Shown: positions 8 to 56,144 of the stretch, in pieces
Layout: each line of letters opens with the position of its first letter
Numbering within the stretch: position 1 is the stretch's first letter
Assembly: GCA_027919835.1 (NCBI GenBank)
Contig: JANVFP010000003.1
Location: 806,001 to 870,000 of the forward strand
Reading direction: 5' to 3'
Source of the DNA: Lentinula raphanica
Taxonomy: Eukaryota; Basidiomycota; Agaricomycetes; Agaricales; Omphalotaceae
DNA length: 64,000 nucleotides
Notes under the pieces: generated by a model
Databases searched by the model: none
Seen by the model: only the letters and a program-made list of their open reading frames with translations
Told to the model about the DNA's origin: nothing
Position numbers and translations under genes: made by a program

Positions 8-3000
8 TTGCCTTGGCGTCCATCCAAATGTCCCGAAAAGTTTCGGAGCCAATGGGCGGAGAAACGGGATGCCTATCTGAAATCGGGTAGGTGGAAGATG
101 ACTAGTTCGGGAAACACTGTACCAATGATGTTGATTCCCAAACCAGGAAGTTTGAAGATGCGCGTCGTGGTGGATCTTCGAGCGCGGAATGCAAACACGA
201 AGAAATTATCTTCACCGATGCCGGATATCGAAGGCATCAAACGACGAGTCGCTCGTGCAAAGTACCGGTCGATTATCGATGGAAAGGATGCGTACGAACA
301 GATACGGATTGTACCTGAACACGTACCTCGTTCGGCGGTCACCACTCCTGATGGGAATATGGTGAGTCTTGTTATTCAACAAGGCGATTGCAATGCGCCT
401 GCAACTTACCAAGCTCTGATGAATTATCTCTTCTCAGAGTATATTGGGAGATTTATGGATGTTTACCTCGATGACATAGTAATCTATTCAGAATCTCTGG
501 AGGATCATGTTAAACATGTTAAATTGATCATTGACATTCTCAAGCGAGAAAAGCTTTACCTTAGTGAGGAAAAACTGAACTTCCTGCCAAAGGAGTTCAA
601 GGTACTCGGATGTATCATTGACGATAAGGGTATCCGGATGGATCCCCACAAAGTCGACGCCATCATTCGATGGCCAACGCCTACTAACCGCGACCTTCTT
701 CGTGGTTTCTTGGGATCGGTAGGATATCTTGCCGATGATATTGGTCTTGTCCGGATTCCTATGGGACATCTAAGCGCCATTACCGGGGATACAGTACCTT
801 TTCGTTGGACTCATGTTGAGCAACGAGCCTTTGAAAATGTGAAAGAACTCACCAGTGGGGCTCGGGATCACCACCGAGTCCCTCTCGATTATTCTGAAGG
901 TGCGCCTCCAGTATGGATGATTACCGATGGTTGTGCCACGGGGATCGGTGGCGCGGTCTGCCAAGGTCCATCGTGGAAGGATGCAAAGGCGGCAGCTTTC
1001 TATTCCGCGAAGTTGAATCCTGCACAGCAGAATTACCCGGTCCATGAGATCGAGATGCTGGCAGGTGTCGAAACGATGCTTCGTCATCGTGACATCCTCC
1101 AGGGAGTTGAGTTCACCTGGATCACAGACCATAAGGGTCTTGAGCATCTTCTCAAGCAGAAGGACTTGTCAGGACGACAAGCTCGATGGCTCGAGAAGAT
1201 CTCAGAATTCAACTATAAGATTGAATACGTACCGGGTGTTGACAACATACTCGCGGATGCGCTCTCGCGAATCTATTCAAATGATAAGCCTGGTACTGTT
1301 CGTGCAAGGAGTGAATACACGTACCACGATGTCATCGATAACGATGTTTTGCTCTCGCACAACATCTCAATGCCTTTACTTGTTGATATTGAGGCATCTT
1401 TTGCTTCTCCTGAGTTATTTGCGATGTCCACTCGTAATGAAGGGAAGCGAGTCGAAACCAGCCACGAGTTTGCTAAACGGATGGTTGGAAAACGTTTCGT
1501 GTTGCACGGTCCTCGTGAACAACGAAAGGAGGGCGGGAGTACCCATCCGGATCCTGCTAAAACTTCAAATCAGATTGAACCCAGTAGCGTTCAGCCTGAA
1601 CCTACTGATACCGCCGCTAATCCAGCTGTAGAGGTGCCGGAGGTGTCAACGGACACCTCACTGCTTACTGCATTGGCAGCAAGCCAGTCAAAACTCGATC
1701 TTGAAACCCTGCTAAAAGATCAGTATGGAAATGATAAAATGTTCAAAGAGATTGTTGACAAACCAAAGGAATACCGAAACTTCGAGGTATCTGATGGTTT
1801 GGTATACCTTGTGCAGCACGACCGAAAGGTTCTCTGCATACCAAAACTCACAGTCAATGGACGGAACATTCGAGAATGCATCATTGATGAAGCACACTCA
1901 CTTTTAGCTCACCTTGGTCCTAAGAAGACAATCAATTACCTTCGAGACTATGTGTGGTGGAAAGACTTGATATCGGATGTCAAAGTTTATTGTGATTCAT
2001 GTCGAACGTGTAAGCGTGCAAAGCCTAACAATGCACGACCTTATGGATTATTGAATCCATTACCGGTTCCTTCATATCCTTGGGAATCCATTGCGTTGGA
2101 TTTCGTAGGGCCTCTGCCTGAGTCGAAGGACCGAAACGGGACATACGATATGATAACGGTTGTTATTGACCTATTAACGGGTATGGTACATCTTGTACCT
2201 AGCAAAACCACCTACAAAGCAAAACAAGTTGCCGAACTTGTGTTTGCGGAAGTCTATAAACACCATGGACTGCCTAAGAACATAGTTAGCGACCGAGATT
2301 CGTACTTCACGAGTACATTTTGGACTCACCTACACAACCTGATTGGTACGAAACTCAAAATGTCGAGTGCTTACCATCCGGAAACCGACGGATCAACTGA
2401 ACGAGCTAATCGGACAGTCACTCAAATGCTTCGCCAATGTGTTGCTGTCGACCAGAAGGACTGGGTAATCAAATTACCTGCAGTCGAGTTCGCAATAAAC
2501 TCAGCCCGCTCGGAGACAACAGGATACTCACCTTTCTTTTTGAACCACGGCCGAATGCCTCGTTCTTTCCTGTGGAATTCCGCTGATAAGAATGAATACC
2601 CGGGAATCAGGGTATACGCTCAAAAGATGAAGCAGGCTGTAATGCAAGCCCACGATAGCATCTTGAATGCACGAGTCAAACAGACGCGCGATGCGAACAG
2701 GCGTCGCCGTCCGGCTCCCTTTGAAGAAGGAGATCTGGTGTATATCTCCACAAAGAATATTTCGTTTCCTAAGGGATATGCAAGGAAATTAGTACCGAAA
2801 TTCATTGGACCCTACAAGATCTTGAAGGATTTTGGGAACTCTACCTTTAGAATAGACATCCCTGCTCGTCTGAAGCAACGAGGAGTGCATGACGCATTTC
2901 ATGCATCGCTCCTTCGGATCCATGTCCCTAACGACGACCGACTGTTCCCAGGACGGCTGGAAACTCAAGTAGCTGACTTTGAAGACTCGGAGGGTGAATG

Positions 3001-4234
3001 GGCGGTTGACCGTATCGTCGCACACTCTGGAACACGCTCAGATGCGCTATTCCATATCAAGTGGAAGTCCGGAGATTTGACCTGGCTGCCGTACCACCAG
3101 ATTGACCATCTGGACGCAGTTGGGGAGTATTTTGATGCGCTTGGAATCTCAGATATTTCCGAGCTGATGGATGGAGGGCGCGACGTCCCAGATCCGAATT
3201 CAATCCCACATTTGGGAGTTGACGACGCGTCCACCTTGCGATTGAATTTCCTCCTCTTGCCCCTAGATGACTCAGGGTTAGACAAGGAGGAAGATATAAA
3301 AGACAAAGTTGACGCACCTTATTCCCCAGAATCCACCATGTCTTCCACTCAGCAAACCCCATCCACACCGACGAAACCCCTCGAATGGCTCAAACGAGTC
3401 AACGCGAACCGGAACACCATCTCCTCGTCCGATGGAATCACCTATAGCATCACCCCGGCCGAACTCTCTGCCTGTCTTGATTTCGATGCTGTCCTTCGAC
3501 GACCGGGTGCCGTATTGGGGAATCTACATGTCCCCATAGCGTATCCTTACCTTGCGACCAGAGTTAACTCGGATCCACTCATTGGAACCATGAAGATGGC
3601 CATCGTGGATCCCGACGCCGGTACTATCCATGTTCCTATAAATCCGGTTGATCGTTCTTTCTTCGCGCCATTCGTTCGTGGACCGAATTCCGAATCGTCG
3701 ATTATGAAAACCCTTGGATTGTCTAACCTATCCCACAAACAACAAGCATTATATGGGAAACTACTCTTGGATAGCGCCGAACGAGGAGTAGGTGTCTCTG
3801 TATCCGAGAAGAAGGGAAAGAAGAAGAAAGGGAAGAAGAATGGTCAGATGAATGTTGATCATGGTGTCAAAAAACAGGACTCACCTATGCCTGCTGGTCC
3901 CAGTACCTCGAGCAGTCCTCATCCTCCCTTTGTCTTTGGGTCCATACCCGCCAATAACCCCGCTGTGCAACTCGGTCCAAATGCAGCCCATAACCCACTC
4001 CATGTCCCTAACAACACTCCTGTTAGCACCACATCTCCCAATGACTCTCAACCCGCATCTAATTCTGGCCTCTCCGAGTCAGACTTGACTGCATTCTTCA
4101 GCAATTTGAGCCATAACAATAACACCGCTTCTGGTTCCAACAACTCGACAACCGACGAATTTGGATTTTCGGATCCCGATTCAATGATTCTTGAAGGTGA
4201 CAATCAGCCGATGAATGAAGGAGCTCCCGCGTAG
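8..4234 (+). CDS. Ty3/gypsy chromovirus Pol polyprotein, 5' end outside window
   Basis: Reverse transcriptase, RNase H, integrase and chromodomain of a Ty3/gypsy (chromovirus) retrotransposon. The 1408 codons visible begin inside RT, so gag, protease and the 5' LTR lie upstream of the window. Visible landmarks: RT active site YLDD near residue 153 in VYLDDIVIYS; RNase H start MITDGCATGIGG near 303; integrase HHCC zinc finger about 625-665; DDE triad as LDFVGP (about 697), VSDRD (about 762) and TERAN (about 797), with the usual 35-residue D-E spacing; chromodomain about 997-1052 ending in WKSGDLTWLPYHQI. The frame is uninterrupted, so the element looks young. Odd point: the ORF continues about 355 residues beyond the chromodomain, with a Lys-rich stretch near 1275 and a Ser/Asn-rich tail; I do not recognise this extension. 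Confidence 0.93.
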   Translation: MPWRPSKCPEKFRSQWAEKRDAYLKSGRWKMTSSGNTVPMMLIPKPGSLKMRVVVDLRARNANTKKLSSPMPDIEGIKRRVARAKYRSIIDGKDAYEQIRIVPEHVPRSAVTTPDGNMVSLVIQQGDCNAPATYQALMNYLFSEYIGRFMDVYLDDIVIYSESLEDHVKHVKLIIDILKREKLYLSEEKLNFLPKEFKVLGCIIDDKGIRMDPHKVDAIIRWPTPTNRDLLRGFLGSVGYLADDIGLVRIPMGHLSAITGDTVPFRWTHVEQRAFENVKELTSGARDHHRVPLDYSEGAPPVWMITDGCATGIGGAVCQGPSWKDAKAAAFYSAKLNPAQQNYPVHEIEMLAGVETMLRHRDILQGVEFTWITDHKGLEHLLKQKDLSGRQARWLEKISEFNYKIEYVPGVDNILADALSRIYSNDKPGTVRARSEYTYHDVIDNDVLLSHNISMPLLVDIEASFASPELFAMSTRNEGKRVETSHEFAKRMVGKRFVLHGPREQRKEGGSTHPDPAKTSNQIEPSSVQPEPTDTAANPAVEVPEVSTDTSLLTALAASQSKLDLETLLKDQYGNDKMFKEIVDKPKEYRNFEVSDGLVYLVQHDRKVLCIPKLTVNGRNIRECIIDEAHSLLAHLGPKKTINYLRDYVWWKDLISDVKVYCDSCRTCKRAKPNNARPYGLLNPLPVPSYPWESIALDFVGPLPESKDRNGTYDMITVVIDLLTGMVHLVPSKTTYKAKQVAELVFAEVYKHHGLPKNIVSDRDSYFTSTFWTHLHNLIGTKLKMSSAYHPETDGSTERANRTVTQMLRQCVAVDQKDWVIKLPAVEFAINSARSETTGYSPFFLNHGRMPRSFLWNSADKNEYPGIRVYAQKMKQAVMQAHDSILNARVKQTRDANRRRRPAPFEEGDLVYISTKNISFPKGYARKLVPKFIGPYKILKDFGNSTFRIDIPARLKQRGVHDAFHASLLRIHVPNDDRLFPGRLETQVADFEDSEGEWAVDRIVAHSGTRSDALFHIKWKSGDLTWLPYHQIDHLDAVGEYFDALGISDISELMDGGRDVPDPNSIPHLGVDDASTLRLNFLLLPLDDSGLDKEEDIKDKVDAPYSPESTMSSTQQTPSTPTKPLEWLKRVNANRNTISSSDGITYSITPAELSACLDFDAVLRRPGAVLGNLHVPIAYPYLATRVNSDPLIGTMKMAIVDPDAGTIHVPINPVDRSFFAPFVRGPNSESSIMKTLGLSNLSHKQQALYGKLLLDSAERGVGVSVSEKKGKKKKGKKNGQMNVDHGVKKQDSPMPAGPSTSSSPHPPFVFGSIPANNPAVQLGPNAAHNPLHVPNNTPVSTTSPNDSQPASNSGLSESDLTAFFSNLSHNNNTASGSNNSTTDEFGFSDPDSMILEGDNQPMNEGAPA

Positions 4235-5205: not shown

Positions 5206-5383
5206 TATAAGGTGGATGCCTCGATGCCTCGACTGGAGGCGAGTCTTGCTTAAGTTCAGACGATGAACACGACAAGTTATATTGAGCGTGTAAAGGTCAA
5301 AACAAAAGAAGAACTGAAGTATCAATATGTGCAAATAATAGATTTTAATGGTGATTACTAAGTGAGATTCCATGGGCGTTACA
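5206..5383 (-). repeat. Downstream (3') LTR of the gag-only element
   Basis: 178 bp, matching 7941-8110 throughout except for one 8-bp duplication (GATGCCTC repeated near 5216-5231). Near-identity of the two LTRs implies a recent insertion. Confidence 0.87.
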
Positions 5384-5625
5384 CCCTCCCCGGCCAGGTT
5401 GAACTGAGGGGTACAACCGAAAACTAATGACAAAGATTGTCGATAGTCGGTTCCGTTATGGGACTTCTAATGAACAAAGTCAAGGCAACGTTCCAAGATT
5501 GAATGTCCATGAGGTGAAGAATAATTGAGAATGAATAGAGTCGAGGTAACGTTCCAAGAACATCTATTCATTCATTAGAATAGGGTTGAGTTATGAAATA
5601 TAGGCGTACCGAGTCTCGACAATCA

Positions 5626-7800
5626 TCACACTGTGTCCATAGATGCATCAGCAGACTCAACGTGCGAGAGACTCGTTTTGGCTGTATCCATAGTGTCGTC
5701 TGCAGATACAGCCAAGGTGGTATGCGAGGAGGATGTAGGGGCGATGTTTGAAGCAACCTGAGGGAAGATGTTGATTCCATCCAATTGATCACCAGGGATA
5801 GGCGACGAAGATTGGTGAGTGATTACACCATCCTCATTCATATGATCATCATTTCGTCCGGTGGGGAGACCATGCGTGATTAGCAAGGGGTATAGGCGAA
5901 ACCTCAGCTGAAACACAAGGTTCACCACGTCTACATTGACCGCTTTGACGTCTCGGAGCCACATGTAGGCGAACAGCGCGGCATCGTGAATATCTTTGAA
6001 CGCGAGGCCTTGCGAGGCGAAGAATCTAGCCACGCTGTCCATAGATATGTTGCGTGGGTCTCCCGGATACCGAGATAATGCAGGAGTTGGGTATGCGATG
6101 ATAATGGCATTATCATGGAGGAATGAAGCATAGTATGATGGAGTGAGTATAACCTCGATGGCGGTTATGAGATACGCAATCCTAGTAGAAGCTGTCGCAC
6201 TTCGATCAACCTCAGGTTGTTGGAGAAATATCATTTGTCGCCCACGTATAGACCGCAAGGATACCGTATTGGTATCCTTGAAATGCCTAACTCCAAGGAT
6301 ACTGCGAGGCTTCGCTGAGTGCGCTTGGCATAGCCACTTAACGATAGTCTCGAGGTTGGCTCCAGTAGCGGGAGGTTTGGCATCTGCTCGACGTTGTTCG
6401 GCGGCAGCATGTGCTGCTTCTTGTCGCGCTTGGTGATCTCGAGCACGATCGCTCAGTTCAGTCATCGAGCCTTTCGCCCGACTGGATGACACAAACAATG
6501 GGACATAGAATCGCGAGATGATCTCTCGTTGTACCGGAGTACGAACGTTTTCCGGCGTCGCCTGAGCGCGATGGTACACGGTCTCCAGCATGTTGAATAT
6601 AGGCCATGCTGGTTTTCTGTTCTGTTGTTGGGATTCACGGAGATGTCGCACGTAATCCTCAACTTGTGTAACAGTGACCGGTTCCGTGGGTGTGCGACGA
6701 CGTTTGGACAAGGGAATACTGGAATTTTCGTAGGGCAGTGACGATGAGGTTGGTAAGAACTGAGCAGCTTTGGCCGGGCTTATTACGAATCCGATAGGGC
6801 TTTCCGACCGATCTGTGGAGATGGATGGGGTGTACGAATGGGATGGTGTGTGTAGATAATTGAGATTGGAGGATATTTTTTGTTTCTTCGTTGACAAGTT
6901 GGATTCAGTGTCGCCATTTTTCCACTGGTCGATTTCTTTCTTCAGATCGTGGATGTGATTGTCCCGCGATCGGATAGATTTTTCAAGGGACAGACCCAGA
7001 CTCGCAACATGTATAGTGGTCAATTCCGTGTATCGTGGCATTGGATTAGTATATTGTGGTCTTGTATGTGGTGGTGGTAATGCCGCCGGACAATTGTCTA
7101 CAGGGAGAACTGGGTTCTGTAGTCGAAGGCTTGAAGTGTTGGACTGATCATGTGGTGAATGAAGCGACCGGTTGGGTGTTGGTAATGGACTAGGGCTTCT
7201 AGCCATTACACGGTGGGTGATACCAGTGCTACTTGCACTGAATTGATCGAGGTTACGCTGTACCGTGTCGTATTCGGGACGCGTTAGCAGGACGTTGTTG
7301 ACAGTATTGAAGTACCGAGTGTATTTCTGTTCAATCGAAGAGAAGCTATTAACAATATTCGAGTGTACTTGTTGAATATCATTAATGACCATCTCTTGGA
7401 AAGTGGTCATAAAAGATAGAGGATCTGAACGAATGTCTTCTAGCACTTCTACACTCACAACTTCATTGTTGGTTTGTGGACTGTGTACAGATCGTGCCGG
7501 TGAGGTAGGAATTGGGGAATGGGACAGAGATAGAGGGATGTGAATAGGTGACAGAAGAGTTTCCTCGATTACATTGGCCTCGACGGGTTTGTTTGACAGT
7601 GATAGGATGTTTTTTCGTCGACTCGCTGGTCTTGAGAACATGTCGTGAGGTTGTCGCCACGAACTGACAGTGTCCGCCATTGACACCGGTTGTGGGTTGC
7701 CACGTCCACCGAATGCTGTCCTCGCAGTTCTCGTAGGCGTGATACTTCCGCTTTGGGGTGTTTGGTATGTAGTTCTTTCACTAGCTTCTGGGAAAGACAT
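5626..7800 (-). CDS. Gag-like protein of the gag-only LTR element
   Basis: 724-residue uninterrupted ORF, the only coding region in the element. The N-terminal half is Ser/Pro/Thr-rich and probably disordered. A short charged helical stretch (RDNHIHDLKKEIDQW) lies near residue 290, and basic clusters STKKQK and LSKRRRTP near 310 and 375 could be nuclear signals. From about 385 to 650 the sequence is denser and more helical (VEDYVRHLRESQ, IFNMLETVYHRAQ, NISMDSVARFFASQGLAFKDIHDAALFAYMWLRDV), as expected of a capsid fold. There is no CCHC zinc knuckle and no protease motif. I call it gag-like from its position in an LTR element rather than from a recognised domain. A captured host gene is the alternative. 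Confidence 0.6.
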   Translation of the reverse strand: MSFPEASERTTYQTPQSGSITPTRTARTAFGGRGNPQPVSMADTVSSWRQPHDMFSRPASRRKNILSLSNKPVEANVIEETLLSPIHIPLSLSHSPIPTSPARSVHSPQTNNEVVSVEVLEDIRSDPLSFMTTFQEMVINDIQQVHSNIVNSFSSIEQKYTRYFNTVNNVLLTRPEYDTVQRNLDQFSASSTGITHRVMARSPSPLPTPNRSLHSPHDQSNTSSLRLQNPVLPVDNCPAALPPPHTRPQYTNPMPRYTELTTIHVASLGLSLEKSIRSRDNHIHDLKKEIDQWKNGDTESNLSTKKQKISSNLNYLHTPSHSYTPSISTDRSESPIGFVISPAKAAQFLPTSSSLPYENSSIPLSKRRRTPTEPVTVTQVEDYVRHLRESQQQNRKPAWPIFNMLETVYHRAQATPENVRTPVQREIISRFYVPLFVSSSRAKGSMTELSDRARDHQARQEAAHAAAEQRRADAKPPATGANLETIVKWLCQAHSAKPRSILGVRHFKDTNTVSLRSIRGRQMIFLQQPEVDRSATASTRIAYLITAIEVILTPSYYASFLHDNAIIIAYPTPALSRYPGDPRNISMDSVARFFASQGLAFKDIHDAALFAYMWLRDVKAVNVDVVNLVFQLRFRLYPLLITHGLPTGRNDDHMNEDGVITHQSSSPIPGDQLDGINIFPQVASNIAPTSSSHTTLAVSADDTMDTAKTSLSHVESADASMDTV

Positions 7801-7940
7801 TGTAGAGGTTTGGATATTGAGGTATGGACTTCAGTGTTTGTGAACGCGAATTTTGTTGTTTGAGATGTATTGAGTGTAAACTTTGCACAATTATTGAGAC
7901 TTTTAGAACTTCTAGTGTGATTTCTAGGTGTTCAAAAAAG

Positions 7941-8110
7941 TATAAGGTGGATGCCTCGACTGGAGGCGAGTCTTGCTTAAGTTCAGACGATGAACACGAC
8001 AAGTTATATTGAGCGTGTAAAGGTCAAAACAAAAGAAGAACTGAAGTATCAATATGTGCAAATAATAGATTTTAATGGTGATTACTAAGTGAGATTCCAT
8101 GGGCGTTACA
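7941..8110 (-). repeat. Upstream (5') LTR of the gag-only element
   Basis: 170-bp direct repeat of 5206-5383. On the minus strand it begins TGTAACG right after the AGTAG target duplication. I see no standard TGG-type tRNA primer site just inside it; the adjacent internal sequence is CTTTTTTGAACACC. Confidence 0.87.
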
Positions 8111-8734
8111 CTACTCCTGGTCCCACGGGCCTTCTTGTTGGAACGGAATTCTTCGATCTCCCCTCATCGAAATTCATGACATCGAGCTCCCCTGTCCCAG
8201 ATTCCAGCCAGTACTCGCGATATTTCCAGTCTTTGGAGGTCACCGTGGAGTTTGGCTCAGATGAGGTCAAAACCAAGGTGTTCGCATCCTTGAGAGACTT
8301 GAGCTATCTCAGAAAAGAATGCAATCAACCGAATGGGTTTGTAAATGATCTTGACTACATCAATTGCGCTCTGGTTATCATGAAGCCGTATGTCGTGGGT
8401 CAGGATAAGCACCGTATATTGGATGAAAATTGGGGAAGATACAAAGATAACGCTAGTGAGTGTCTTACTATATATATGCAAAGGGCAGCAGGATTAACCT
8501 GCGCAGTATTATCCTCTCAGTCCGCTTCTGCTGCTCCTCCTGCTCCTCCGAGTGTTGCTGCTCCTGCTCCTGCTCCCGGTTCTGTTGCTCCTCAGATGGT
8601 GCAACCTGCGCCTGTTCCTGCTGCTCCCGTTCAGATTGTGCAACCAGCTTGTGGTAGGTTTGGATAAAACTAGATTCTAGTCTATAAAGGCTAAAGCGGC
8701 TAAAAAGCCAAGTAAGCGTAGGAAGACTCGATGA

Positions 8735-16437: not shown

Positions 16438-19022
16438 TTATAGGCTCTCTTCATCGGAGCTATCGTCCGAGGTAGCAGAGTGAAGTATTAGGTCAGGCGA
16501 GGGACCAAGGATAATGAAATCCCTCCAGTACAAGCTGGATCTGTATATGAATTGTGCGGTGATAGGAACCAAGGACCAGTCGAAGACCAGTCTTTTGAGG
16601 TAAAATAGAGCATCGTCGTCCGAGAAAGTGAAGGACATCGGAAGAGCAATAGGGACAGACATGAGGAAGTCTGAGCGGAGCAGACATAGAGGAGGCAAGG
16701 TTTGGCATTGGAGGAAAACATGTTGTGGAGTTTCCACTGCAGCATGACATGCACGACACAAGCGAGAGTTGGTTTCAGTCGGTGACAGGGTACGTAGAGT
16801 GGAAGGAGATGCGCGGAAAAGGACGGGGACGAGATCACCGCAGAGGAGTCTGGTGAGCTGGCGACGATGGGAATGATTACGGACCTGTGTAAGGTAGTGA
16901 CGGAGGTATAGCGCCTTGTTCGTTGGGTGACCTTCTTCTCTTGGTTCAAGGCGCTCGCGAAGAAGGGACAGTCTGGACCACGTATTGAGGCTAGACACGA
17001 GGTCATTCTTGATAGAGGATGATAAGGACTTGATAAGTGAGTCAATGTGGGATCCATCGAGATCCGAGGGCGATGGTAAGAGGAGATCTGGAGCGAGAAG
17101 GGTGAGTGCCGTTTGGAGGTCTGTTAACCAACAGGCCGACTGAGATTGAAACAAAGTGATATTTTCCGCTAATGCTATTGCAGCAAAGTGATTAGGAGGA
17201 AGTGAGATGAGGTATTTGAGGTAGCGGAGGGCTAGTATCAAACGTCGTGTTCGGATGGGGAGGATACCGGTTTCAGTGAACAAGGGGGCTATGATGGAGT
17301 TTGAGGACAAGCCGAGCATACGACGGAGAAACTGGGTCTGGACTCCTTCAAGGATGGAAACAAGTTTTGGGTCACGATCAATGACAATCTCGCAGCCATT
17401 TGTGAGGTGGCAATCCACTAGGGCCGTGTATAGCTGTTTGCAGATATCGACGGGCATTCGGTGGTTACCAACAAGGAGGTCGGAGCTTGTTATAACACGA
17501 GCAGCAGCAACGGCAACGTTCCGTTTTAAATGGTAGTGGGAGGCAAAAAGGTTGGTGCGCGGCTCCGACTGGAAAAAGATACCCACATATCGACTGGTCT
17601 TGTGGAAAGGTAGTGGTTCATTGCAGAGGGTGATGGGTGGTAGATACGAGGGCAAGCGACCGAATCCCATTAGCCATGATTTGCCGGCGCTGACAGTTAA
17701 GGCATTAGAGAGGCACCAGTGTTCGAAAGATCGAAGATGCCGCTGAAGGCCGAGTGGCGAGCGAGAGATGATAACCATATCGTCAGCGTGTTCGAGGTGT
17801 GACATGAGCGTGGTAGCTAGTGCGATATCATCGGGATCAGTCTCCAGGGAGAAAGCGGAGAGGAAGATGTTCCACAAGGTGGGCGATGAAGGGTCACCCA
17901 TGAGAACCCCTGATAGGGCCTGGAAGTGATTGGAGAGCTCACCATTGTGAGCAATGACATAGGTCATGTTAGAGTATAGGTGGCGGAGCCAGTCGAAGTA
18001 TTTGCCGGTGAGACCCGCCTCGGCGAGACGATTCCATAGGCCATTCTGATTTGTAGAGGGGAATGCATTGGAGATGTCCACAAATGCCACAAAAGTGGGG
18101 TGGTCAGCTGCCTGAGACTTTTCAATAATTGTCCGCAGAATAAATGTGTTGTTGTTCGTGCGGTAACCTTCACGGAAACCGTTCTGCGATGGAGGGATTG
18201 TTTGAGATTGTTCCAGAGCCAGGCAGAGTTTGTAGTGTACGAGGAGGGAAGCGAACTTGAGGACGCAGCTTTCCAAGGCAATCGCGCAATAATTGGACGG
18301 GTTAGTGTTGTCTTTCCCAGGCTTAGGTAAACCTATGATGATAGATGTGAGCCACGAGGTTGGTATTTCACAGTCCTCGATAGCTCTGGTGAAAAGTGGG
18401 AGGAGGATGTCATTGTCATGATGGCTGAGATGCAGTCATACGTAGCGAGATCAGTACCAACAGCGTTGGAGTGAGAGATACGTTTAAGATAAGCTTTGAT
18501 GGCTGCGATGTCTTTGACATGGATGGGCTCGTTGAAAGCAGGGTGGATGGATGGAGGAGACGGCCAAGGGATGTTTTGGGCCAGGATATCGTTGGCGGTG
18601 AGTAGGCGTGGGTCAAAAGAGGAGGAAGATGGATCAGGGGGGTTCATTCGAGGGATGAACGTTGATGTAAGTTGTGTCAAAGAAACTTTTGGGGTTGCAG
18701 GGGTGCCTGAGTGCAAGGTGTTGTAGTAACGCCAGAAAGAGCCACTACCCTCCTCAGCGGCATTCTGCAATCGAGTCCGGATGATTGTTTGTTGGAGACG
18801 TTGATGTGAATGACCACGGTGGGAGGAAGGTTGGGACGGTGGGGCAGTTTTAAGAGGCGGGGCGGGCACGTCCTCTGGTAGCGAAGAGGAGACCTTGCTA
18901 ATGTTAGAGGGGGGATAACATGAGTAACGAGGAGGAGGGGGGATAACATGAGTAACGAGGAGGAGGAGGGACAGATAAGAAATCCTCGGGGGAGTCGGCC
19001 AGAGGAATAGGCAGTGATGCAC
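16438..19022 (-). pseudogene. LINE reverse transcriptase region, frameshifted
   Basis: Two overlapping frames that should be one: 19022-18333 and 18276-16438. RT landmarks: AFVDISNAFPS (box A), GVLMGDPSSPTLWNIFLSAF, and HLEHADDMVIIS, where HADD replaces the usual YADD. The thumb region is followed by a CCHC motif, CRACHAAVETPQHVFLQC, near the C-terminus. The frames join around 18.41 kb, where TYDCISAIM must shift to reach NDILLPLFTRAIEDCEIPTSWL, a conserved pre-RT segment. The 28-bp tandem duplication at 18911-18966 also disrupts the linker to RNase H. Not functional as it stands. Confidence 0.85.
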
Positions 19023-24063: not shown

Positions 24064-25618
24064 TTAAGTCTTCCTACGCTTACTAGATGTGCCTTTCTGA
24101 GCGTTGGCCCTTCCCGCCGCCCTTTCCTTTTGAGCTGAAGCGGCCTCAGCAACTCTAGCCCTTTTAGCCGCGTTTTTAGCCTCTTCAGCTTTGATGTCCT
24201 CCTCCCGTTTGGCTTCGATACCATCCCAAATCTCTTTCCATTCATACCAGACATTCACAACGTACTCCGACCCCCCAACATAGTGCACAGCGCAATCAAC
24301 ATATTCAAAACTACCTTCAATCTTATTCGTCCTACCGCATGCGACCCTGAGTTGTTCAAGATCTCCCAGAGTTCCGAAAACCTCTTTCCTTGAGTCTTCA
24401 TCCAGTCTTACACGTGTTTTGAGGGTTGTGTAATATTGAGGGCTAAAGCCCGACGACTCTGATGAACCACTATGTGACTGCCAAGTGTGAAGTTGAAAGG
24501 GGGGCTTCTCTGCTGTGTCCGCCGGTTTGACGATCGATGGATAATCAAAACAGTGGTCGTCTATCATGAAGACATATATATCATCATGCCGATGTAAAGA
24601 TGCCGCGGTTCTCCAACGATTTGTTGACGGATTTATACGACCAAACCTCAATTGACTGGTTCGAGAGTTTGAAGGATGAGACTCAGAGTCTGATATGGTT
24701 GAATTAGCTTTTATAGACCAGAATTTAGTTTTATCCAAACCTACCACAAGCCGGTTGCACAATCTGGACGGGAGCAGCAGGAACAGGAGCGGGTTGCACC
24801 ATCTGAGCGGGAGGAGTGGCAGGAGCAGGAGAACCGGGAGCAGGAGCAACAACACTCGGAGGAGCAGGAGGAGCAGCAGAAGCGGACTGAGAGGATGATA
24901 CTGCGCAGGTTAATCCTGCTGCCCTTTGCATATATATAGTAAGACACTCACTAGCGTTATCTTTGTATCTTCCCCAATTTTCATCCAATATACGGTGCTT
25001 ATCCTGACTCACGACATACGGCTTCATGATAACCAGAGCGCAATCGATGTATTCCAAGTCATTTACAAAGCCATTTGGTCGCTTGCACTCTTTTCTGAGA
25101 TAGCTCAGGTCTCTCAAGGATGCAAAAGCCTTGGTTCTGACCTCATCCGAGGCAAACTCCACGGCAACCTCCAAGGACAGGAAATATCGCGAGTACTGGC
25201 TGGAATCTGGGACAGGGGAGCTCGATGTCATGAATTTCAATGATGGGAGATCGAAGAATTCTGTTCCAACAAGAAGGCCCGCAGAACCAGGAGTAGAATG
25301 TGGTTCGCTTCGGAGAAGATAATGACCATCCGGTCCTACACGACCGATCTGTAGAAGCTCAGGCTCGGAGAACTGTTGTCGGCGTTGCAAGTGAGGCCTA
25401 TGATAGTCTGGACCTGGTAGAGCTTTATTAGCCTCTCACAAAACAAGACGTAGTTAGATCAACCTACCGTTATCTTCCCTGCGCGCGATCTGGTTATGAG
25501 ATGCAGGGGTACTTTGGAGTTGGGAAGAAGGGGTACTTGGCATAGGACGGGCAACGGCGAATGGACCGAGGAGCGCAGTAGCCAGAACATAGATGGATAG
25601 CAAAGTTCGGATTGGCAT
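24064..25618 (-). CDS. Secreted modular family protein, copy B (two domains)
   Basis: Four exons, complement(24064..24689, 24745..24900, 24952..25413, 25468..25618), 464 residues; every intron is phase 1 and 51-55 nt. Exon 1 encodes a signal peptide (MPIRTLLSIYVLATALLGPF, AVARPMP) and ends at QIARREDN, which contains a possible Kex2-type dibasic site. Exon 2 is one whole domain: LLQIGRVGPDGHYLL, LLVGTEFFDLPSLKF, RYFLSLEVAVEF, ASLRDLSYLRKECKRPNGF, YIDCALVIMKPY. Exon 3 is a Pro/Ala/Val/Gln linker (PAPGSPAPATPPAQMVQPAP). Exon 4 is a second, divergent domain (LRFGRINPSTNRW, HCFDYPSIVKP, FGTLGDLEQLRVACGR, FEYVDCAVHYVGG) plus a basic Ala-rich tail ending SSKRRKT. Predicted secreted; function unknown to me. 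The only apparently intact two-domain copy here. Confidence 0.75.
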
Positions 25619-35749: not shown

Positions 35750-38700
35750 ATGATGAATCTGTGGTCAACGACGCCGACTCGAATGTTGTTGGTCTACCTT
35801 CTGGCCACTCAGAGCCTCTTTGGTTTATACGCCGTTGCCCGTCCTATGCCCATCCCCTTATCTCAACTCCCATCTCCTCCTGCACCCCCGAATCAGATTG
35901 CGCGTCGGGCAGATGGTATGTTCATTCAACTACATCTCATTTTGTTGGAGGCTGACAAAATTTTACCAGACTCGCAACGCTCAAAATCGTCCCCCAGACC
36001 CGGTTATTCCTTGCAGATTGGTCGTAAAGGACCAGATGGTCGATGGCTCAAAATCAATTCAGCACCAACTACCACTGATGTCATAGCCCTTGTCATTCAA
36101 GACGAATCATTCGATCTCCCATCGATTCTATCTAAGCCGAGGGCAGCACAAAAAGTCGACCTCGAAGCTTCTCTCTGGTCAGATTATTTTGTGTCCTTGG
36201 AAGCTTCTGCACTCTTTGGCTCAACGAGGGAGAGGGATTCTGCCTTTAAAACCTTAAGAGACATCAACAAACTCAAAAAGAAATGCAAGAGGCCTGACGT
36301 GGACTTTGTGGATAGTTCTGACTACGTTGACTGCGCTCAGAAATATAGCCGTCAGTTCGTCCACCCGGATGACCTCCAGACGTTCAACGAAGCTTGGAAG
36401 ACTTACAAGTTCAAACGAATTCAGGATCTGGCTAGAGCTGGTATGTATCAGTGCTCCTCACTCATATCTTGGAGGCTAATTATACATAGACGAATTGAAT
36501 GCGCCGTTGATGATTGGTCGTAAAGGACCAGATGGTCAATGGCTCAGAATCGATTCAACACCGACTGCCACTGACGTCACGGCCCTTATCATCGGAAACG
36601 ATTTTTTCGATCTCCCATCGCTTCAATCTAACCCGAGGACAGCACAAAAGGTCCTCCTTGCAACTCGTCTCTGGCCGGATTACTTCGTTCACTTGGATGC
36701 TTCTGTGCACTTCGTCTCAGTGGGGAAGAAAACCTCCACCTTTCAATTTTTGAGAGACATTGTTCGATTGGGACGCATCTCCGAGCGGCCAACAGGTTTC
36801 GCAAGTAATCTCGACTACATCACTTGCGCTTTGTGGTACATGAAAGCGTATGGTGGAGTCAAGTATGCTGAACATCACGAAATGGACAAAGTTTGGAAAA
36901 CTTACATGGCCAGCAGTGAGTGTCTTCCTGATGTACAAAGGGTGACAGAGGTTATTAACCTGTGCAGTGCCATCCCTTCAGCCTGCTCCTCCTGGTTCTG
37001 CTCAGATTGAGCAAATTGAACAAACGGCTAGTGGTATGTGTATCAACTCAAATTCTGATATTTCAAAGGGTGACAGAGGTTATTAACCTGTGCAGTGCCA
37101 TCCCCTCAGCCTGCTCGTCCTGGTTCTGCTCAGATTGAACAAATTGAACAATTGGCTAGTGGTATGTGTATCAACTCGAATTCTGATATTCCAAAGGGTG
37201 ACAGAGGTCATTAACCTGTGCAGTGTCATCCCCTCAGCCTGCTCGTCCTGGTTCTGCTCAGACTGAGAAAATTGAACGATCGGCTAGTGGTATGTGTATC
37301 AACTCAAATTCTGATATTTCAAAGGGTGACAGAGGTCATTAACCTGTGCAGTGTCATCCCCTCAGCCTGCTCCTCCTGGTTCTGCTCAGACTGAGCAAAT
37401 TGAACGATCGGCTAGTGGTATGTGTATCAACTCGAATTCTGATATTTCAAAGGGTGACAGAGGTCATTAACCTGTGCAGTGTCATCCCCTCAGCCTGCTC
37501 CTCCTGGTTCTGCTCAGACTGAGCAAATTGAACGATCGGCTAGTGGTATGTGTATCAACTCAAATTCTGATATTTCAAAGGGTGACAGAGGTCATTAACC
37601 TGTGCAGTGTCATCCCCTCAGCCTGCTCCTCCTGGTTCTGCTCAGACTGAGCAAATTGAACGATCGGCTAGTGGTATGTGTATCAACTCAAATTCTGATA
37701 TTTCAAAGGGTGACAGAGGTCATTAACCTGTGCAGTGTCATCCCCTCAGCCTGCTCCTCCTGGTTCTGCTCAGACTGAGCAAATTGAACGATCGGCTAGT
37801 GGTATGTGTATCAACTCAAATTCTGATATTTGACCCTCAAGCTTCACACTCGCAAGATCCTCTGAAAATGCGCTTAAGGCTTGGTCGTGTCCGGAACCGC
37901 GATGGTAGCTGGGCTGTAAAGAAAATTCCCCATTCGAGAACGGATTTGACTTATGTTGTCCTGTTCGACGACCAGGAATGTTTTGATCTCCCGTCGATCT
38001 CCAATCCGGAGACCACATCAAAGAAAAACCCCATTCCAAGAGTGCGTGACGGCGGCATAGATCGGCAGTATTTTTGGTTTTTGGGGGATGTGAAATTTCC
38101 AGGCGAAAAAGAGAAACAGTCGGTCTTCGAAACTCTGGGAAACCTCGACGAACTCAAAGGCATATGCAAGACCGAAATACAAGACAGTTTTGGATATGCT
38201 AGCTGCGTTGTGGATTATATCGGCACGACAGGATACATCGCTGCGGCCATTTTGTCCAAGAATTGGAAAAGTAAGGTCGTAGACAAGCGGGATAAAGAGA
38301 ACAAGGCTGAATTGAAAGACGCAGAGGGACCTCAGACTGGTATGTTGACGCACTTGTAGCTTGTTTCGTTGGAGGCTGATCAAAATACTCAAGTCTCATT
38401 GCGCCTAAGGGCTGGTCGTGTCTCGAAACGGAATGGTGCTTGGCTTGAAAAAGGCCAAAAACCCTCACAATCGGGTTCAGCGTATGTTGTCCTGTTCGGC
38501 GAGACAACTTTATTCGATTTCCTGTCGATCTCTGATCCGGAACATCCACTAAAGAAGAAACCCATTCCAAAGACCAGCCAAGGGACAGTAATTCGACAGT
38601 ATTTCTGGTCCTTGGGATATGTGTCTTTCCCAGATGAGAAAACGAAAAATGAGGCCTTCTCATTTATGGCCGACCTCGAAAAACTCGAAGCGCAGTGTCA

Positions 38701-38980
38701 GATGCCGATCACAGACGATTTTGAGTACGCTGATTGCCTTATGAAATACATCGAAACGACATGGGACTTCAAAAAGGAGGTTAGGAAGGGTGCGGGTTGG
38801 GGCAGCGTTGTAGCTAACCGAATGAAGGAAATCGATGCTCAAGCGGCTGATAACGCAGGAGCAAAGTGTGAGTGTTCTATTGTGCATATATCTTGCGAGG
38901 GCTGACGTGGCTTTACAGCGAAGCCCAAAGACTCATCTGCGCATGCCGGCCCCAGTGGTGGAGGATCATCGCGGACGTAA
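35750..38980 (+). CDS. Secreted modular family protein, copy D (four domains, repeated linker exons)
   Basis: Thirteen exons, join(35750..35915, 35970..36440, 36490..36915, 36968..37033, 37096..37161, 37224..37289, 37352..37417, 37480..37545, 37608..37673, 37736..37801, 37857..38339, 38394..38867, 38919..38980), 847 residues; all introns phase 1. Exon 1: signal peptide (LLVYLLATQSLFGLYAVARPMP) and QIARRAD. Exons 2 and 3: domains 1 and 2 (LQIGRKGPDGRWLKI, ESFDLPSI, LRDINKLKKKCKRP; MIGRKGPDGQWLRI, FFDLPSLQS, YITCALWYMKAYGG). Seven 66-nt exons each encode a 22-residue SPQPAPPGSAQTEQIE-type linker unit. Exons 11 and 12: domains 3 and 4 (LRLGRVRNRDGSWAVKK, CFDLPSISNP, FGYASCVVDYIGTT; LRLRAGRVSKRNGAWLEK, LFDFLSISDP, FEYADCLMKYIETT). 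Short tail SKPKDSSAHAG. Probably secreted; function unknown. The usual family ATG is mutated to ACG, so translation must use 35750 or 35753. Confidence 0.78.
37034..37801 (+). repeat. Exon-intron minisatellite in copy D, 128-bp unit
   Basis: Splice donors GTATGTG recur at 37034, 37162, 37290, 37418, 37546, 37674 and 37802, exactly 128 bp apart. Six full units run from donor to donor; with the leading exon 36968-37033 there are seven exons. Each unit is a 62-nt intron (GTATGTGTATC ... CCTGTGCAG) plus a 66-nt exon with no frame change. Units from 37290 on are almost identical; the first two differ at several bases, so the array grew from its 3' part. Confidence 0.95.
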
Positions 38981-39339
38981 TGAAATTTCGCAGTTTGTTT
39001 TTCACCTATCTATTCATAGAATCTCCCCGTTGTTATATCTAGAGCACTACAGCAGACTTTTTCATCCTGCGTAGTTATGTACACAAAACGTTTAACTTAT
39101 TTTCACAAACCGTTGTATATACATTTATTCATTCATCCGATAGAGTCAGATCGAGAGAGCCTATACTGGTTACTACTACTTGTTTCAGAGACTGGTCGAA
39201 AGTGAGTTCAAAAAATACATAAACAATGGGCTCTAATATGGATCGTTCGAAGCCATGCAATCTATACTATATTCCGGAATCATCTGTCCCTTCTAGCCAC
39301 TGATAGGGTGTTGAACACCTCGTCAAGCATAATCGGCGA
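38981..39339. other. 3' flank of copy D
   Basis: Probable 3' UTR (CACCTATCTATTCATAGAAT, GCAGACTTTTTCATCCTGCGTAGT) whose sequence recurs at 39450-39570. No gene. Confidence 0.5.
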
Positions 39340-39580
39340 ACAATATATCTCATAAGGCCTGACAAGGCTGTACAGTGAAGCCGAATTTCGAAAGACTCAT
39401 CTGCCGGTCCCAGTCATGGAGGGCCCTCTGGCACATCACGGACGTAGTAAATTGTTTCCAGTTATATCTCACCTATCTATTCATAGAATTTCCACCTTTC
39501 ATTCTATCTAGAGGGCTATAGCAGACGTCTTCATCCTGCGTAGTCATATATATAGCTGTTTACCCTACATTCACAGGCCC
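39340..39580 (+). pseudogene. Relic of a family 3' end
   Basis: Second, diverged copy of the last intron/exon and 3' flank of copy D: GGCCTGACAAGGCTGTACAGTGAAGCC, AAAGACTCATCTGCCGGTCCCAGT, then CACCTATCTATTCATAGAAT and CTTCATCCTGCGTAGTCATA. No domain-coding part remains. Either a local duplication of the 3' end or the remnant of a fifth gene. Confidence 0.65.
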
Positions 39581-50930: not shown

Positions 50931-53208
50931 ATGCCTCCTCCTATAGCGAACGACCCTTGGCTGGCTGGTCGTCACTTTGGCATTGTCATAGACGCTGGAT
51001 CGTCTGGCTCTCGCCTTCAAATCTACAGCTGGAAGGATCCTGCACTCGTCTCTTCTCATTCGTCCTTACATTCATTGCCCAAGGTCGAGAAGGGTACGAA
51101 AGATGGAAAGTATTGGTCTACCAAGGTTGAGCCAGGTCGGCTACGCACTGTCGAATGTCATTCTTCTACTCATCTGCTTGCTAGGCATATCAACGTTCGC
51201 GAACAATCCCGAAGACATTGGAGCTTATCTTCGTCCCCTCCTTGGTCATGCCAGAGATAAAATACCTCCGTCACTTCACAAAGACACGCCTCTTTTCCTC
51301 CTGGCTACAGCTGGAATGCGTCTTCTCACTCCAGATAAGCAGGCCGAAATTTTGAAAGAGACCTGCTCCTTCCTTGTCCGTCATTCATACTTCAAAATCG
51401 ATGAACCTTCAGAAAGTGGTCCCTGTGGTTCAAGTGTGCTCATCATCACCGGAGAGGAGGAAGGTTTATTTGGCTGGATAGCCGTGAACTATCTCATGGA
51501 CGGTTTTGCGAACCAACAGGGGCATACCACGTATGGCTTTCTCGACATGGGCGGCGCGTCAACTCAAATCGCTTTTGAGCCAGGAAAGGACCACGAGTTG
51601 GACTCGAATAGGATGATAGACGTTCGCTTACGCTTGCTCGACGGAGAAGAGATACACCACAAGGTTTTCGTCACTACCTGGTTAGGTTATGGCACGAATC
51701 AAGCTCGGGAGAGATACATTGGGATGACTATCGAGGCCTTTGAGAACACTCGAACAGGCGAAGCCGACGTGGTTCCTGATCCATGTCTTCCCAAAAACCT
51801 TGAGCTAACCGAGACTCCTGCTTTTGTGGGATATGCCTCCGACCACGTTCAGGAAACGCATCATATGAAAGGCACCGGCTCCTTCGAACAGTGCATGAAG
51901 CAAACATCCACGCTACTCAACAAAAACGCTCCTTGTCCTGATGTGCCTTGTCTCATGGATGGAGTTCATGTCCCTCCTATCGACTTTTCCGTGTCTCACT
52001 TCATTGGCGTGTCCGAATACTGGTTTTCTTCGGAACATGTCTTTGGGCTTGGCGGACCTTACAATTTTGTCCAATACGAGCGAGCTGCTTCCAATTTCTG
52101 CTCGAGAGAGTGGTCAGATATCGTGCGCGAACATGAGGAGTCAGTCAGACATCGACCTTTGGATGGCGATGGAGAGGTAGAGGGTGAGAACGGAGAGGTT
52201 GTAGCTGTAGGGAAGTGGGGTCCACAGGTGGAAATACCTCGGTTACAGATGCAGTGCTTCAAAGCTGCTTGGATCGCGAATGTACTTCACGAGGGTATAG
52301 GTTTACCTCGAATAGTGGACCCAGATGGTAATTCCACGTCCGAAGCTGATCCCGTAGCCGCAAAAGCAGCACAGAAAGGGTTGGGTAGGCCGACCTTTCA
52401 ATCAATGGACTCTGTCGGTGATATCGCTATCAGCTGGACACTGGGAAAGATGGTTCTCGAGGCTAGCAAAGAGGTTCCTCCTCTACATGGTACCGTTCCT
52501 CCCATCAGTGATCCCCAAATACCCGAAGACTTTCCTGTCAAACCCATCCGCCCCTGGATATCTCTCGATGGCTTGGAGGACCGCCTCACACCTCACTTAC
52601 CACCGTCTCTCCACAGAAACTCCCTCGGATTCTCCCCTATCCTCCTCATTTTTTTCACTATGCTCCTTTTCGTCGCTGTCCTGTTCGCATGTCCTCTCCG
52701 TCGTCAATCTCGCTCGTTCTGCCTGCGCGCCTTACGGAAGGTTGCGAAACATGATTCGAACGCTTTTGCATTGGAGGAAGGGAAGTTCCTCAATGGCAAT
52801 GTATCAATTTCTCGACCGCCTTCTCCTACATCTGGTCCTATAAGATGGTTGCGCCCCTTACGACGATTACTTGTCTCGAAGCCAAAACGCACGCGGACTC
52901 GCCCTTTGGTACTTACAGGTTTGAACTCCAATATCCGTGATGGACCACTCACACCAACTCGAGGTTCTCCTATTCGACCGTACACGTTTCCTGCAGGGAT
53001 GATACTAGCAAACTCAGGTGGTTCCAATAGCACATCGCCTCTGCCTCCGTCTCCGAACAATGCCATTTTTGATGATGCCAATGGCGGTTCATCATCCTTC
53101 TCGCCTTCAAGAAATGCCTCCCAGATGAATCTATCCAGTATGGTCCCTCGATCTGTAACGAGAGTCAATAGCGGTTATCAGATTTCGGATGGTTATCTGC
53201 ACGACTGA
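50931..53208 (+). CDS. GDA1/CD39 apyrase (Golgi nucleoside diphosphatase, Ynd1-like)
   Basis: Two exons, join(50931..51135, 51185..53208), 742 residues. Hydrolyses NDP/NTP; in yeast the Golgi member removes UDP/GDP left by glycosyl transfer. Apyrase conserved regions in order: ACR1 VIDAGSSGSR (about residue 20), ACR2 LLATAGMRLL, ACR3 ITGEEEGLFGWIAVNYL (catalytic Glu), ACR4 FLDMGGASTQIAFE, then ISWTLGKMVLEAS. A C-terminal membrane helix FSPILLIFFTMLLFVAVLFACPL follows, with a cytosolic tail rich in basic and Ser residues. The single C-terminal anchor and lack of an N-terminal one fit the Ynd1 type rather than Gda1. The 49-nt intron closes VEPG|ISTFANNPE in frame. Confidence 0.94.
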
Positions 53209-53654: not shown

Positions 53655-54689
53655 CTACTGCACTCGACAACATGATGTCAAACTCCAAGGCAAGTGCCAT
53701 CTTTTTCTTCGTGTCAGTGCCATTTCAAATGTCCTTGGCTGGAAGTTGTGAAGTCTTCTCATTTCCTCCTCTACGTCTCTGTCAATCACCCAGCCGTAAA
53801 ATGCCCAGTCATCTTTCATAGTAGGCGACATAGTCTTTTCTCGATCGATCAACCACTCGTTTTCGAGCACACCTTCCACCGAAAACCTCACTAACCTGAC
53901 TCGATCAGATAATGCACCTGCGGAACAAAGTACATCGAGGAAGAACTTCAATCGCATGACACTGTCCGTCAGAATTTCGATGGGCACCGTATGAATTTGG
54001 TTGTTGTAAAGAGGATCTGTGAATGATTCAACACTCGACAGATTCACGGATAAAGTGTCTATGCTCCAAACATGGTTGGTATCTGTGTTTCTGTATAAAC
54101 CTGCAGGTCCGTAGAGCAGAAACCTGGCCAGCATGGTAAAGAGGTTTCGAACGATTTTGGAAAGTCCTCCATTGGCGGACCAACGAATGGTTAATTCCGA
54201 CTGCAGTCTGAGTGAAACATCTAGATTTTTGCATTTTGGATTGAGGTCTACCGAGATTAACGACGAGGCGTTCAATCCTTCTGGATAGGTGCATAAGGGT
54301 AACACAATCCAGGTTGGCCATATCTCATCCGTCCAGTAAGTCCAAAGACTTCTCTCTGGATTCGTTATCCCAACCAGAATAACATCGAGCTCGAAGGACA
54401 TGCCACCGAGTTTTTGTTGCCTTTCGAAGCACTCGACGACTTCGGTGTATGTCTGACGGCAAGTATACAGAATCCCGAAACAAGAGCCTCGACTGGCATG
54501 GGTCTGCCACTTCCAATCAAGTTTAGGACGAGTCACGGTATGACGCTCCGAGACGTCTATGAGATGCCCAGGTACAGAGGGCGAAAGCGATCCAATAGGT
54601 GCGTAGAGCAATGAGTCGTAAATTTGATCACGGAGCTCGCGAGGAAAGGAAAGAAATGGGCTGCTACCGGGAAGGGATTCAGTGAACAT
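53655..54689 (-). CDS. F-box-like protein, paralogue 1
   Basis: 344 residues in one exon. N-terminus FLSFPRELRDQIYDSLLYAPIGS resembles the degenerate F-box start of many fungal proteins (L-P-x-E-[LI]-R-x-x-I-Y). It is followed by RGSCFGILYTCRQTYTEVVECFERQQKLGGMSFELDVILVG, where L-x-x-[TV]-C-R-Q-x-Y-x-E is the usual motif after such a box, then PTWIVLPLCTYPEGLNASSLISVDLNPKCKNLDVSLRLQSE and TLSVNLSSVESFTDPLY. If an SCF adaptor, the target is unknown. About half its residues are shared with the next gene upstream, so they are tandem duplicates. The C-terminus (RRKRWHLPWSLTSCC) differs and may be shaped by an unseen intron. Confidence 0.7.
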   Translation of the reverse strand: MFTESLPGSSPFLSFPRELRDQIYDSLLYAPIGSLSPSVPGHLIDVSERHTVTRPKLDWKWQTHASRGSCFGILYTCRQTYTEVVECFERQQKLGGMSFELDVILVGITNPERSLWTYWTDEIWPTWIVLPLCTYPEGLNASSLISVDLNPKCKNLDVSLRLQSELTIRWSANGGLSKIVRNLFTMLARFLLYGPAGLYRNTDTNHVWSIDTLSVNLSSVESFTDPLYNNQIHTVPIEILTDSVMRLKFFLDVLCSAGALSDRVRLVRFSVEGVLENEWLIDREKTMSPTMKDDWAFYGWVIDRDVEEEMRRLHNFQPRTFEMALTRRKRWHLPWSLTSCCRVQ

Positions 54690-55097: not shown

Positions 55098-56144
55098 TTA
55101 AGCACTGATAGTATGCATACCGAACAAAAGTAAGCTTACCAAGTTCAGCTTTTGCAACTTGTGCCAAGATATTCTACGTTCTTCCGAGTCCGCATCAATT
55201 ACCCATCCGTACCTTGATGCCCATAATTCTTTCTCCAAGGACGACATAGTTTTGCCTTGATCGACGAGCCACTCGGTATCGAGTACACCTTCCAGAGAAA
55301 GCCTGACCAGCCTAATTCGATCGAATAATGCACCTGCTGTATGGGCTTCATCCAGGTAATTCTTCAAGTGAGTGATGCTGTCCTCTACAACTTCGTCGGG
55401 TACCGTACAAGTCTGGCCATTGTAAGGATCCGTGAATGATGTGACACGGGATAGGTTTATAGACAGAGTATCTATTTTCCAGACACGATGATCGGGGTTT
55501 GTGATTTTGCAAAAACCTGCTGGTCCATAAAGCAGGAATCTCGCCAGCATGGTGAAGAGGCTCCGCGTAAGTCGTTCTAGTAGGTCAGGATCGCTCCATC
55601 GCAATGCCATCTCTGATTGCACTCTCAACGATACCTCCAGAGTTTTGCATTTCGGATGACGATCTGTCGCAATCAACGAGGAACCGTCGAAACCTTGAGG
55701 ATATGTACATAAGGGGAGCACAGTCCAGGTAGGCCATATCTCGTCGCCCCAGTTGACCAAATTCCACCCCCTGTCATAGTCAAGAACTACCCCACGCAGA
55801 ATAATGTCGAGCTCGAACGACATGCCACCAAGTTTCTCTTGTCTTTCGAAGCACTCGACAATTTCGGTGTAGATCTGGCGGCAAGTATACAGAATGCCGA
55901 AGCAAGAACCTCGAGGAGCATGCTCAGTCTGCCAGTTCCAATCGAACATGAGATCAGGCGAATAAGAATAACTGTTTAGATCTTCTATGAGATGCACGGG
56001 TATAGACGGCGAGGGTGTTCCGATAGGTGCATAAAGCAGCGTTTCGTAGATGTTATCACGTATTTCGCGAGGCAGAGAGAGGAATGAGCTGCTATGAAGG
56101 GTGCTGGACATCATTGAAGATGGATACGAACGTCCAGACGGCAT
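55098..56144 (-). CDS. F-box-like protein, paralogue 2
   Basis: 348 residues in one exon. Same layout as its neighbour: SFLSLPREIRDNIYETLLYAPIGTPSPSIPVHLIEDL, RGSCFGILYTCRQIYTEIVECFERQEKLGGMSFELDIILRG, DEIWPTWTVLPLCTYPQGFDGSSLIATDRHPKCKTLEVSLRVQSEMALRW, LFTMLARFLLYGPAGF, KIDTLSINLSRVTSFTDPY, DRIRLVRLSLEGVLDTEWLVDQGKTMS, YGWVID. A possible donor (GTAAGC) near 55138 leaves the last dozen codons uncertain. Divergent from the Rap1-like gene, 115 bp apart. Confidence 0.72.
   Translation of the reverse strand: MPSGRSYPSSMMSSTLHSSSFLSLPREIRDNIYETLLYAPIGTPSPSIPVHLIEDLNSYSYSPDLMFDWNWQTEHAPRGSCFGILYTCRQIYTEIVECFERQEKLGGMSFELDIILRGVVLDYDRGWNLVNWGDEIWPTWTVLPLCTYPQGFDGSSLIATDRHPKCKTLEVSLRVQSEMALRWSDPDLLERLTRSLFTMLARFLLYGPAGFCKITNPDHRVWKIDTLSINLSRVTSFTDPYNGQTCTVPDEVVEDSITHLKNYLDEAHTAGALFDRIRLVRLSLEGVLDTEWLVDQGKTMSSLEKELWASRYGWVIDADSEERRISWHKLQKLNLVSLLLFGMHTISA

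Follow-up and report, generated by a model that had tools for sequence, protein, structure and literature searches.

A tandem array of linker exons with chimeric introns in a gene of Lentinula raphanica

In a gene of the mushroom Lentinula raphanica, a 128-bp unit made up of one whole exon between two intron halves is repeated in tandem exactly 7.0 times, and each join between neighboring units forms a complete predicted intron whose halves match the two dissimilar introns that flank the array. We consider it highly probable that a symmetric linker exon was duplicated together with halves of its introns, yielding an array with chimeric introns and a linker that changes length in steps of 22 residues. 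On this reading, the case shows how new introns can be formed from the fused halves of two unrelated ones through the duplication of a single symmetric exon. Relatives with a single linker exon are found alongside the array and exon number may then vary within the species, which opens the birth of introns and the evolution of linker length to direct tests in a mushroom. All coordinates refer to the 64,000-nt stretch of contig JANVFP010000003.1 analyzed here (positions 806,001 to 870,000, forward strand), which we call the window.

TRF places the array at 36936-37831, with a 97% match and a score of 1666. Cutting it at the splice sites gives seven 66-nt exons and six complete 62-nt introns, with all seven donors, from 37034 to 37802, spaced at steps of 128, and with every exon/intron border in phase 1; the exon and intron numbers and lengths, the spacing, and the donors listed in a first-pass annotation of this DNA were all recovered. 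The six internal introns, which are predicted introns recognized by consensus only, all run GTATGT...CAG over 62 nt. The donor octamers are identical in all seven units, and the acceptor hexamers are identical too. Each unit consists of 32 nt of the 3′ part of an intron, the 66-nt exon, and 30 nt of the 5′ part of an intron, with both ends inside introns. The annotation had described the unit as a complete exon plus intron, and it does carry its own intron sequence, but in the form of a half-intron on either side of an exon, so that the introns between units are chimeric. The annotation had also placed the array at 36968..37856, and an array is indeed present there, but the repeated DNA starts 32 nt upstream at 36936, within the intron that precedes the first array exon. 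Array exon 7 stops at 37801 and the repeat itself at 37831; the terminal intron has two candidate acceptors, 37841 and 37856, and position 37856 marks a possible splice site and not the end of the repeat. By reading, these acceptors are 15 nt apart and both are in frame. The junction after the array in P0001, an L. raphanica protein described below, agrees with acceptor 37841, and the length of the intron at the corresponding position in a minus-strand paralog fits acceptor 37856 by eye. The features of the host gene and the array are as follows.

35750..38980, plus strand: host gene, spliced model with 13 exons, 12/12 introns in phase 1, 852 aa; stop at 38978-38980 placed by eye
35750..35915, plus strand: exon 1 (spliced model), hydrophobic signal-like N-terminus ending ...IARRAD; signal peptide and RR site by eye
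35970..36440, plus strand: exon 2 (spliced model), domain D1; AlphaFold2 mean pLDDT 89.6
36490..36915, plus strand: exon 3 (spliced model), domain D2, 47% identical to D1
36916..36967, plus strand: intron A (spliced model), 52 nt; its final 32 nt are the start of repeat unit 1
36936..37831, plus strand: tandem array, 7.0 x 128 bp (TRF)
36968..37033, plus strand: array exon 1, 66 nt
37034..37095, plus strand: chimeric intron 1, 62 nt, exactly 30 nt of intron B plus 32 nt of intron A
37096..37161, plus strand: array exon 2
37162..37223, plus strand: chimeric intron 2, differing from the B and A parts at 3 positions
37224..37289, plus strand: array exon 3
37290..37351, plus strand: chimeric intron 3
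37352..37417, plus strand: array exon 4, identical to exons 5-7
37418..37479, plus strand: chimeric intron 4
37480..37545, plus strand: array exon 5
37546..37607, plus strand: chimeric intron 5
37608..37673, plus strand: array exon 6
37674..37735, plus strand: chimeric intron 6
37736..37801, plus strand: array exon 7
37802..37841, plus strand: intron B, 40 nt (55 nt with acceptor 37856); its first 30 nt close the array
37842..38339, plus strand: exon 11 (spliced model), domain D3
38394..38867, plus strand: exon 12 (spliced model), domain D4, 41% identical to D3
38919..38980, plus strand: exon 13 (spliced model and sequence), short C-terminal tail and stop

The host protein contains four related domains of ~130 residues (D1 to D4) and is probably secreted. 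None of seven translations (D1-D4 and three paralog ORFs) scored above the curated Pfam cut-off, a PDB sequence search with D1 gave a single chance-level match (E 0.71), and a structure search gave no clear relative, with the PPPDE/DeSI fold (3ebq) weighed as a candidate match. SP7-like effectors of arbuscular mycorrhizal fungi have been described as having an SP7 repeat signature and a conserved intron before the first repeat (PMC11333574). The exons encoding D1-D4 are also phase 1-1, and they seem to have been doubled. D1 and D2 match the first domain of two paralogs at 38-42%, versus 26-33% for the second; the corresponding values are 32-34% to the second and 30-32% to the first paralog domains for D3, and 29-32% and 27-36% for D4, and D3 and D4 may correspond, if weakly, to the second paralog domain. 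The intron preceding D1 is similar to two others, namely that between D3 and D4 (matched in score by 0 of 300 shuffles) and that between D1 and D2 (matched by 1 of 300), which would fit copying of the domain exons along with parts of their introns. Among 36 domain-exon pairs, all 32 that are unsaturated have a dN/dS below 1 (0.15-0.74, with 0.37, 0.62, and 0.74 in close pairs), many of the dS values being above 1 and poor estimates. The 3′ end of the host gene (38967-39081) is duplicated ~467 bp downstream (39434-39550), and the duplicate may be what is left of another copy of the gene.

The chimeric make-up of the introns is clearest in intron 1, which is identical to the start of intron B at 30/30 positions and to the end of intron A at 32/32, with no base left over; chimeric introns 2-6 have 1-3 mismatches each to the B and A parts. 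The duplicated segment thus starts after the first 20 nt of intron A and ends 30 nt into intron B. Such a make-up is in part expected of any tandem array of whole units. Introns A and B are dissimilar, however, with 292 of 300 shuffles scoring as well as the true pair, and because the breakpoints lie inside two dissimilar introns, the join would have built a new intron from two unrelated halves. By eye, a CTGAT word is present near the breakpoints in both introns.

We propose that the ancestral gene had a single symmetric (phase 1-1) linker exon between unrelated introns, with A upstream and B downstream, and that a 128-bp segment reaching from mid-A to mid-B was tandemly duplicated. The new join would have put the 5′ 30 nt of B ahead of the 3′ 32 nt of A, creating a complete 62-nt chimeric intron, and unequal exchange or replication slippage could later have brought the array to seven units and homogenized the later ones. 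As the exon has 22 codons and all introns are in phase 1, each unit would add or remove 22 residues of a Pro/Ser/Ala/Gln-rich linker between the domain pairs D1-D2 and D3-D4. The earlier proposal that units can be gained or lost without a change of frame agrees with the symmetric 66-nt exon and with the shared phase of all 12 introns.

The single-exon state postulated for the ancestor is found among the paralogs of the host gene. The host protein has at least 19 matches in its own genome (49,059,867 bases in 75 contigs), all within one ~46-kb cluster on both strands, C3:799207-844977, which corresponds to positions 1-38977 of the window plus sequence upstream and makes up a local gene family. 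All three linker-bearing paralogs have one linker exon each at the place of the array, of 147, 156, and 147 nt.

24064..25618, minus strand: paralog; its single 156-nt linker exon lies between an upstream relative of intron A and a downstream intron at the position of B
8110..8694, plus strand: second paralog, part; gene split by an inserted element; one 147-nt linker exon
just upstream of the window: paralog L028 with one 147-nt linker exon

In all three, the intron preceding the linker exon is a 51-nt relative of intron A, with 0 of 1000 shuffles scoring as well in each case, and the array exon aligns to the paralog linker exons with scores of 20.3-24.3, whereas no shuffle in six sets of 1000 scores above 7.5. 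The intron following the linker exon occupies the position of intron B but resembles it no better than chance, with 71, 339, and 548 of 1000 shuffles scoring as well, and its correspondence to B is one of position. On the minus strand, a fourth relative running from 28077 to about 26900 is apparently without a linker exon, as judged by reading.

Several mobile elements lie in the same cluster. The first domain exon of one paralog is disrupted by a ~2.9-kb element at 5223-8111 that has an identical 162-nt direct repeat at each end. The element carries a 724-aa ORF for which no Pfam match was obtained at E≤0.01, has a 5-bp target duplication on its flanks as judged by eye, and looks like a short-LTR, non-autonomous retroelement. 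The plus-strand ORF at 8-4231 has RT, RNase H, and integrase domains and the minus-strand ORF at 16438-18276 has a reverse transcriptase domain, and we read these as Gypsy-like and LINE-like elements, respectively.

The number of units differs in other L. raphanica proteins. A search with the host product gave two matches at E≤0.001 among the best 7991 candidates, P0001 and P0002, both from L. raphanica, and further relatives may exist. A homolog search with D1-D2 gave nothing at E≤0.001 among 2073 candidates, a set whose length limits left out P0001 (682 aa) and P0002 (787 aa). By reading of the protein sequences, the 22-residue unit is present in seven copies in the window gene, four in P0001, and two in P0002. 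In P0001, which is a partial record, one unit is letter-for-letter the same as unit 2 of the window and another the same as units 4-7. In P0002, the second unit is three residues short and the last linker junction differs from that in the window: residues at about 385-400 read ...EQLASEFDPQASHSQ, and part of the junction corresponds to intron sequence of the window gene. The gene for P0002 may have undergone a change or a loss of the intron here. Over the aligned parts, D1-D4 of P0001 are 95, 91, 76, and 70% identical to the window protein, and those of P0002 are 81, 93, 55, and 44% identical; judging by these values, P0001 is probably an allele of the window gene, and P0002 may be either an allele or a paralog. 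We infer that introns separate the units in the genes for P0001 and P0002 as well, and the copy-number states could be alleles of one locus. Linker length probably varies within L. raphanica, and the window gene, P0001, P0002, and the three paralogs all have a linker at the corresponding site, 41 to 154 residues long.

The units are not equally similar along the array. No differences are found among exons 4-7, and a single site is variable among introns 3-6, whereas exons 1-3 show 2-7 differences from one another and from the later exons; divergence is seen at the 5′ edge only, and the 3′ edge is uniform. This is as expected if exchange is hampered at the edge, and the identical exons 4-7 fit the recent expansion or homogenization suggested in the first-pass annotation. 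Between units, 9/66 exon columns and 3/62 intron columns are variable, and by reading, 8/9 exon changes replace an amino acid. Conservation is therefore no higher in the exons than in the introns. This is consistent with units turning over as wholes and offers no evidence that the linker sequence is strongly constrained.

These numbers lend weight to the view that the array is a neutral by-product, in which in-frame units drift within a tolerant, disordered linker and neither the copy number nor the introns serve any function. We rate this view as only somewhat less probable than its opposite. In addition to the exon variation, the paralogs carry a longer single exon (147-156 nt) instead of an array, and the fourth relative apparently does without a linker exon altogether. 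Set against this, donors and acceptors are intact in all seven units, and a linker is found at one place throughout the window gene, the two L. raphanica proteins, and the three paralogs; its length may carry functional weight. Duplication of a symmetric exon with its intron halves is our preferred account of how the array arose, whether or not its length matters.

If the array is spliced as predicted, intron retention and exon skipping would have different outcomes. Read through in phase, the six internal introns each run into TAA and the terminal intron into TGA, so that retention of any of them would truncate the protein, whereas the loss, gain, or skipping of whole array exons keeps the frame in the spliced model. 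Because the array donors and acceptors are identical, one allele could in principle give rise to mRNAs with differing numbers of linker exons, and as any pairing of donor and acceptor inside the array keeps the frame, all of these would be in frame. We think this unlikely: short fungal introns are recognized by intron definition, which favors neighboring sites and makes exon skipping rare. Intron retention is the commoner alternative splicing event in fungi. A little more doubtful still is the idea that the array acts as a molecular ruler, in which the unit number is set genetically and isoform length is set per transcript, such that a strain shows a ladder of linkers and intron retention serves as an off-switch. 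If true, linkers would be available in 22-residue steps between the domain pairs, and the stop inside each array intron would end the protein.

The array itself is not a chance pattern, given its TRF score and match and a spliced frame that links flanking exons whose domains are related to each other and to those of the paralogs. Unspliced, the array has stops in all six frames. We consider it very improbable that the exon pattern is accidental and that the locus represents a non-coding minisatellite or a pseudogene in decay; although one neighboring paralog is interrupted by an inserted element, no stop breaks the spliced frame of the host gene across its 13 exons, all 32 unsaturated exon pairs have a dN/dS below 1, and two L. 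raphanica proteins have unit boundaries fitting the junctions in the window. A chance non-coding repeat was rejected on the basis of the open frame and the dN/dS values. As a control, we ran TRF on the window and on 100 kb from each of contigs C1 and C2 (200 kb in all), which gave 18 rows with a period of ≥55 and ≥1.8 copies. Three of these pass a crude splice-consensus test, namely the array and two L040 rows of 2.2 and 2.0 copies, and taken alone, the test thus passes 2/17 other rows, which gives a sample of how common candidate arrays are in this genome. Near-identical introns at regular spacing could also suggest that the 62-nt segments are introner-like mobile elements inserted into a coding repeat, but this is scarcely credible, as every base of intron 1 derives from one or other flanking intron, the exon is repeated along with the intron, and the matches to the unit found in the 49-Mb genome (at least 8) all lie at the array locus.

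Intron-bearing tandem repeats are already known in a few genes, and the present array is a very compact and clear case, set apart by its short unit, its whole-exon register, and the single-exon relatives beside it. The statement in the first-pass annotation that arrays carrying their own intron are unusual may hold, but close precedents have been published in CNN00420, SmPoMuc, silk, and LPA genes. One precedent is a basidiomycete gene, CNN00420 of Cryptococcus neoformans, which has intron-carrying repeats of ~107 nt with exon ends and a full-length intron; the repeat number differs between strains, the introns are identical within the gene, and slippage, unequal crossing over, or conversion has been proposed (PMC2395259). 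The CNN00420 repeat comprises one whole intron with exon ends, whereas the Lentinula repeat comprises one whole exon with two half introns, and a single-exon state is present in the Lentinula paralogs; the likeness concerns gene architecture. Coccidioides, in which a second fungal example is found, is an ascomycete. The repeated exons and introns of its surface protein gene SOWgp are nearly identical and evolve together, with polymorphism in repeat number and a center that is more homogenized than the edges (Johannesson et al. 2005, described in PMC2576457). Here too the likeness concerns architecture, and the SOWgp array is homogenized at its center relative to both edges, whereas in the Lentinula array only the 5′ edge is divergent.

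Silk proteins are mostly repeats, rather than having a repeated linker between folded domains. The MaSp2 and flagelliform spider silk genes have repetitive exon-intron pairs with strongly homogenized introns, and their exon borders are backed by RNA-seq, whereas those in Lentinula are predicted (PMC9779670). In the SmPoMuc mucins of Schistosoma mansoni, one exon and its flanking introns are tandemly repeated up to 20 times, and the repeat number differs between individuals; these form a multigene mucin family in a metazoan, with units of ~1 kb and polypurine tracts between them (PMC2576457). Kringle IV type 2 of human LPA is a copy-number polymorphic unit of exons plus introns, present in 1 to >40 copies, but the unit is 5.5 kb and has two exons encoding a kringle domain (PMC4378929). 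Earthworm metallothionein was considered as a parallel and rejected, as its minisatellite-like repeats lie inside an intron and the duplicated exons are absent from the final transcript (PMC12783039). Our literature search gave no paper on this Lentinula gene among the matches listed.

Elsewhere in the window, two adjacent and related minus-strand ORFs at 53655-54689 (344 aa) and 55098-56144 (348 aa) are probably a tandem gene duplication. The nucleoside-diphosphatase encoded at 51103-53208 is 99% identical to an L. raphanica protein and 88% identical to one from L. boryana.
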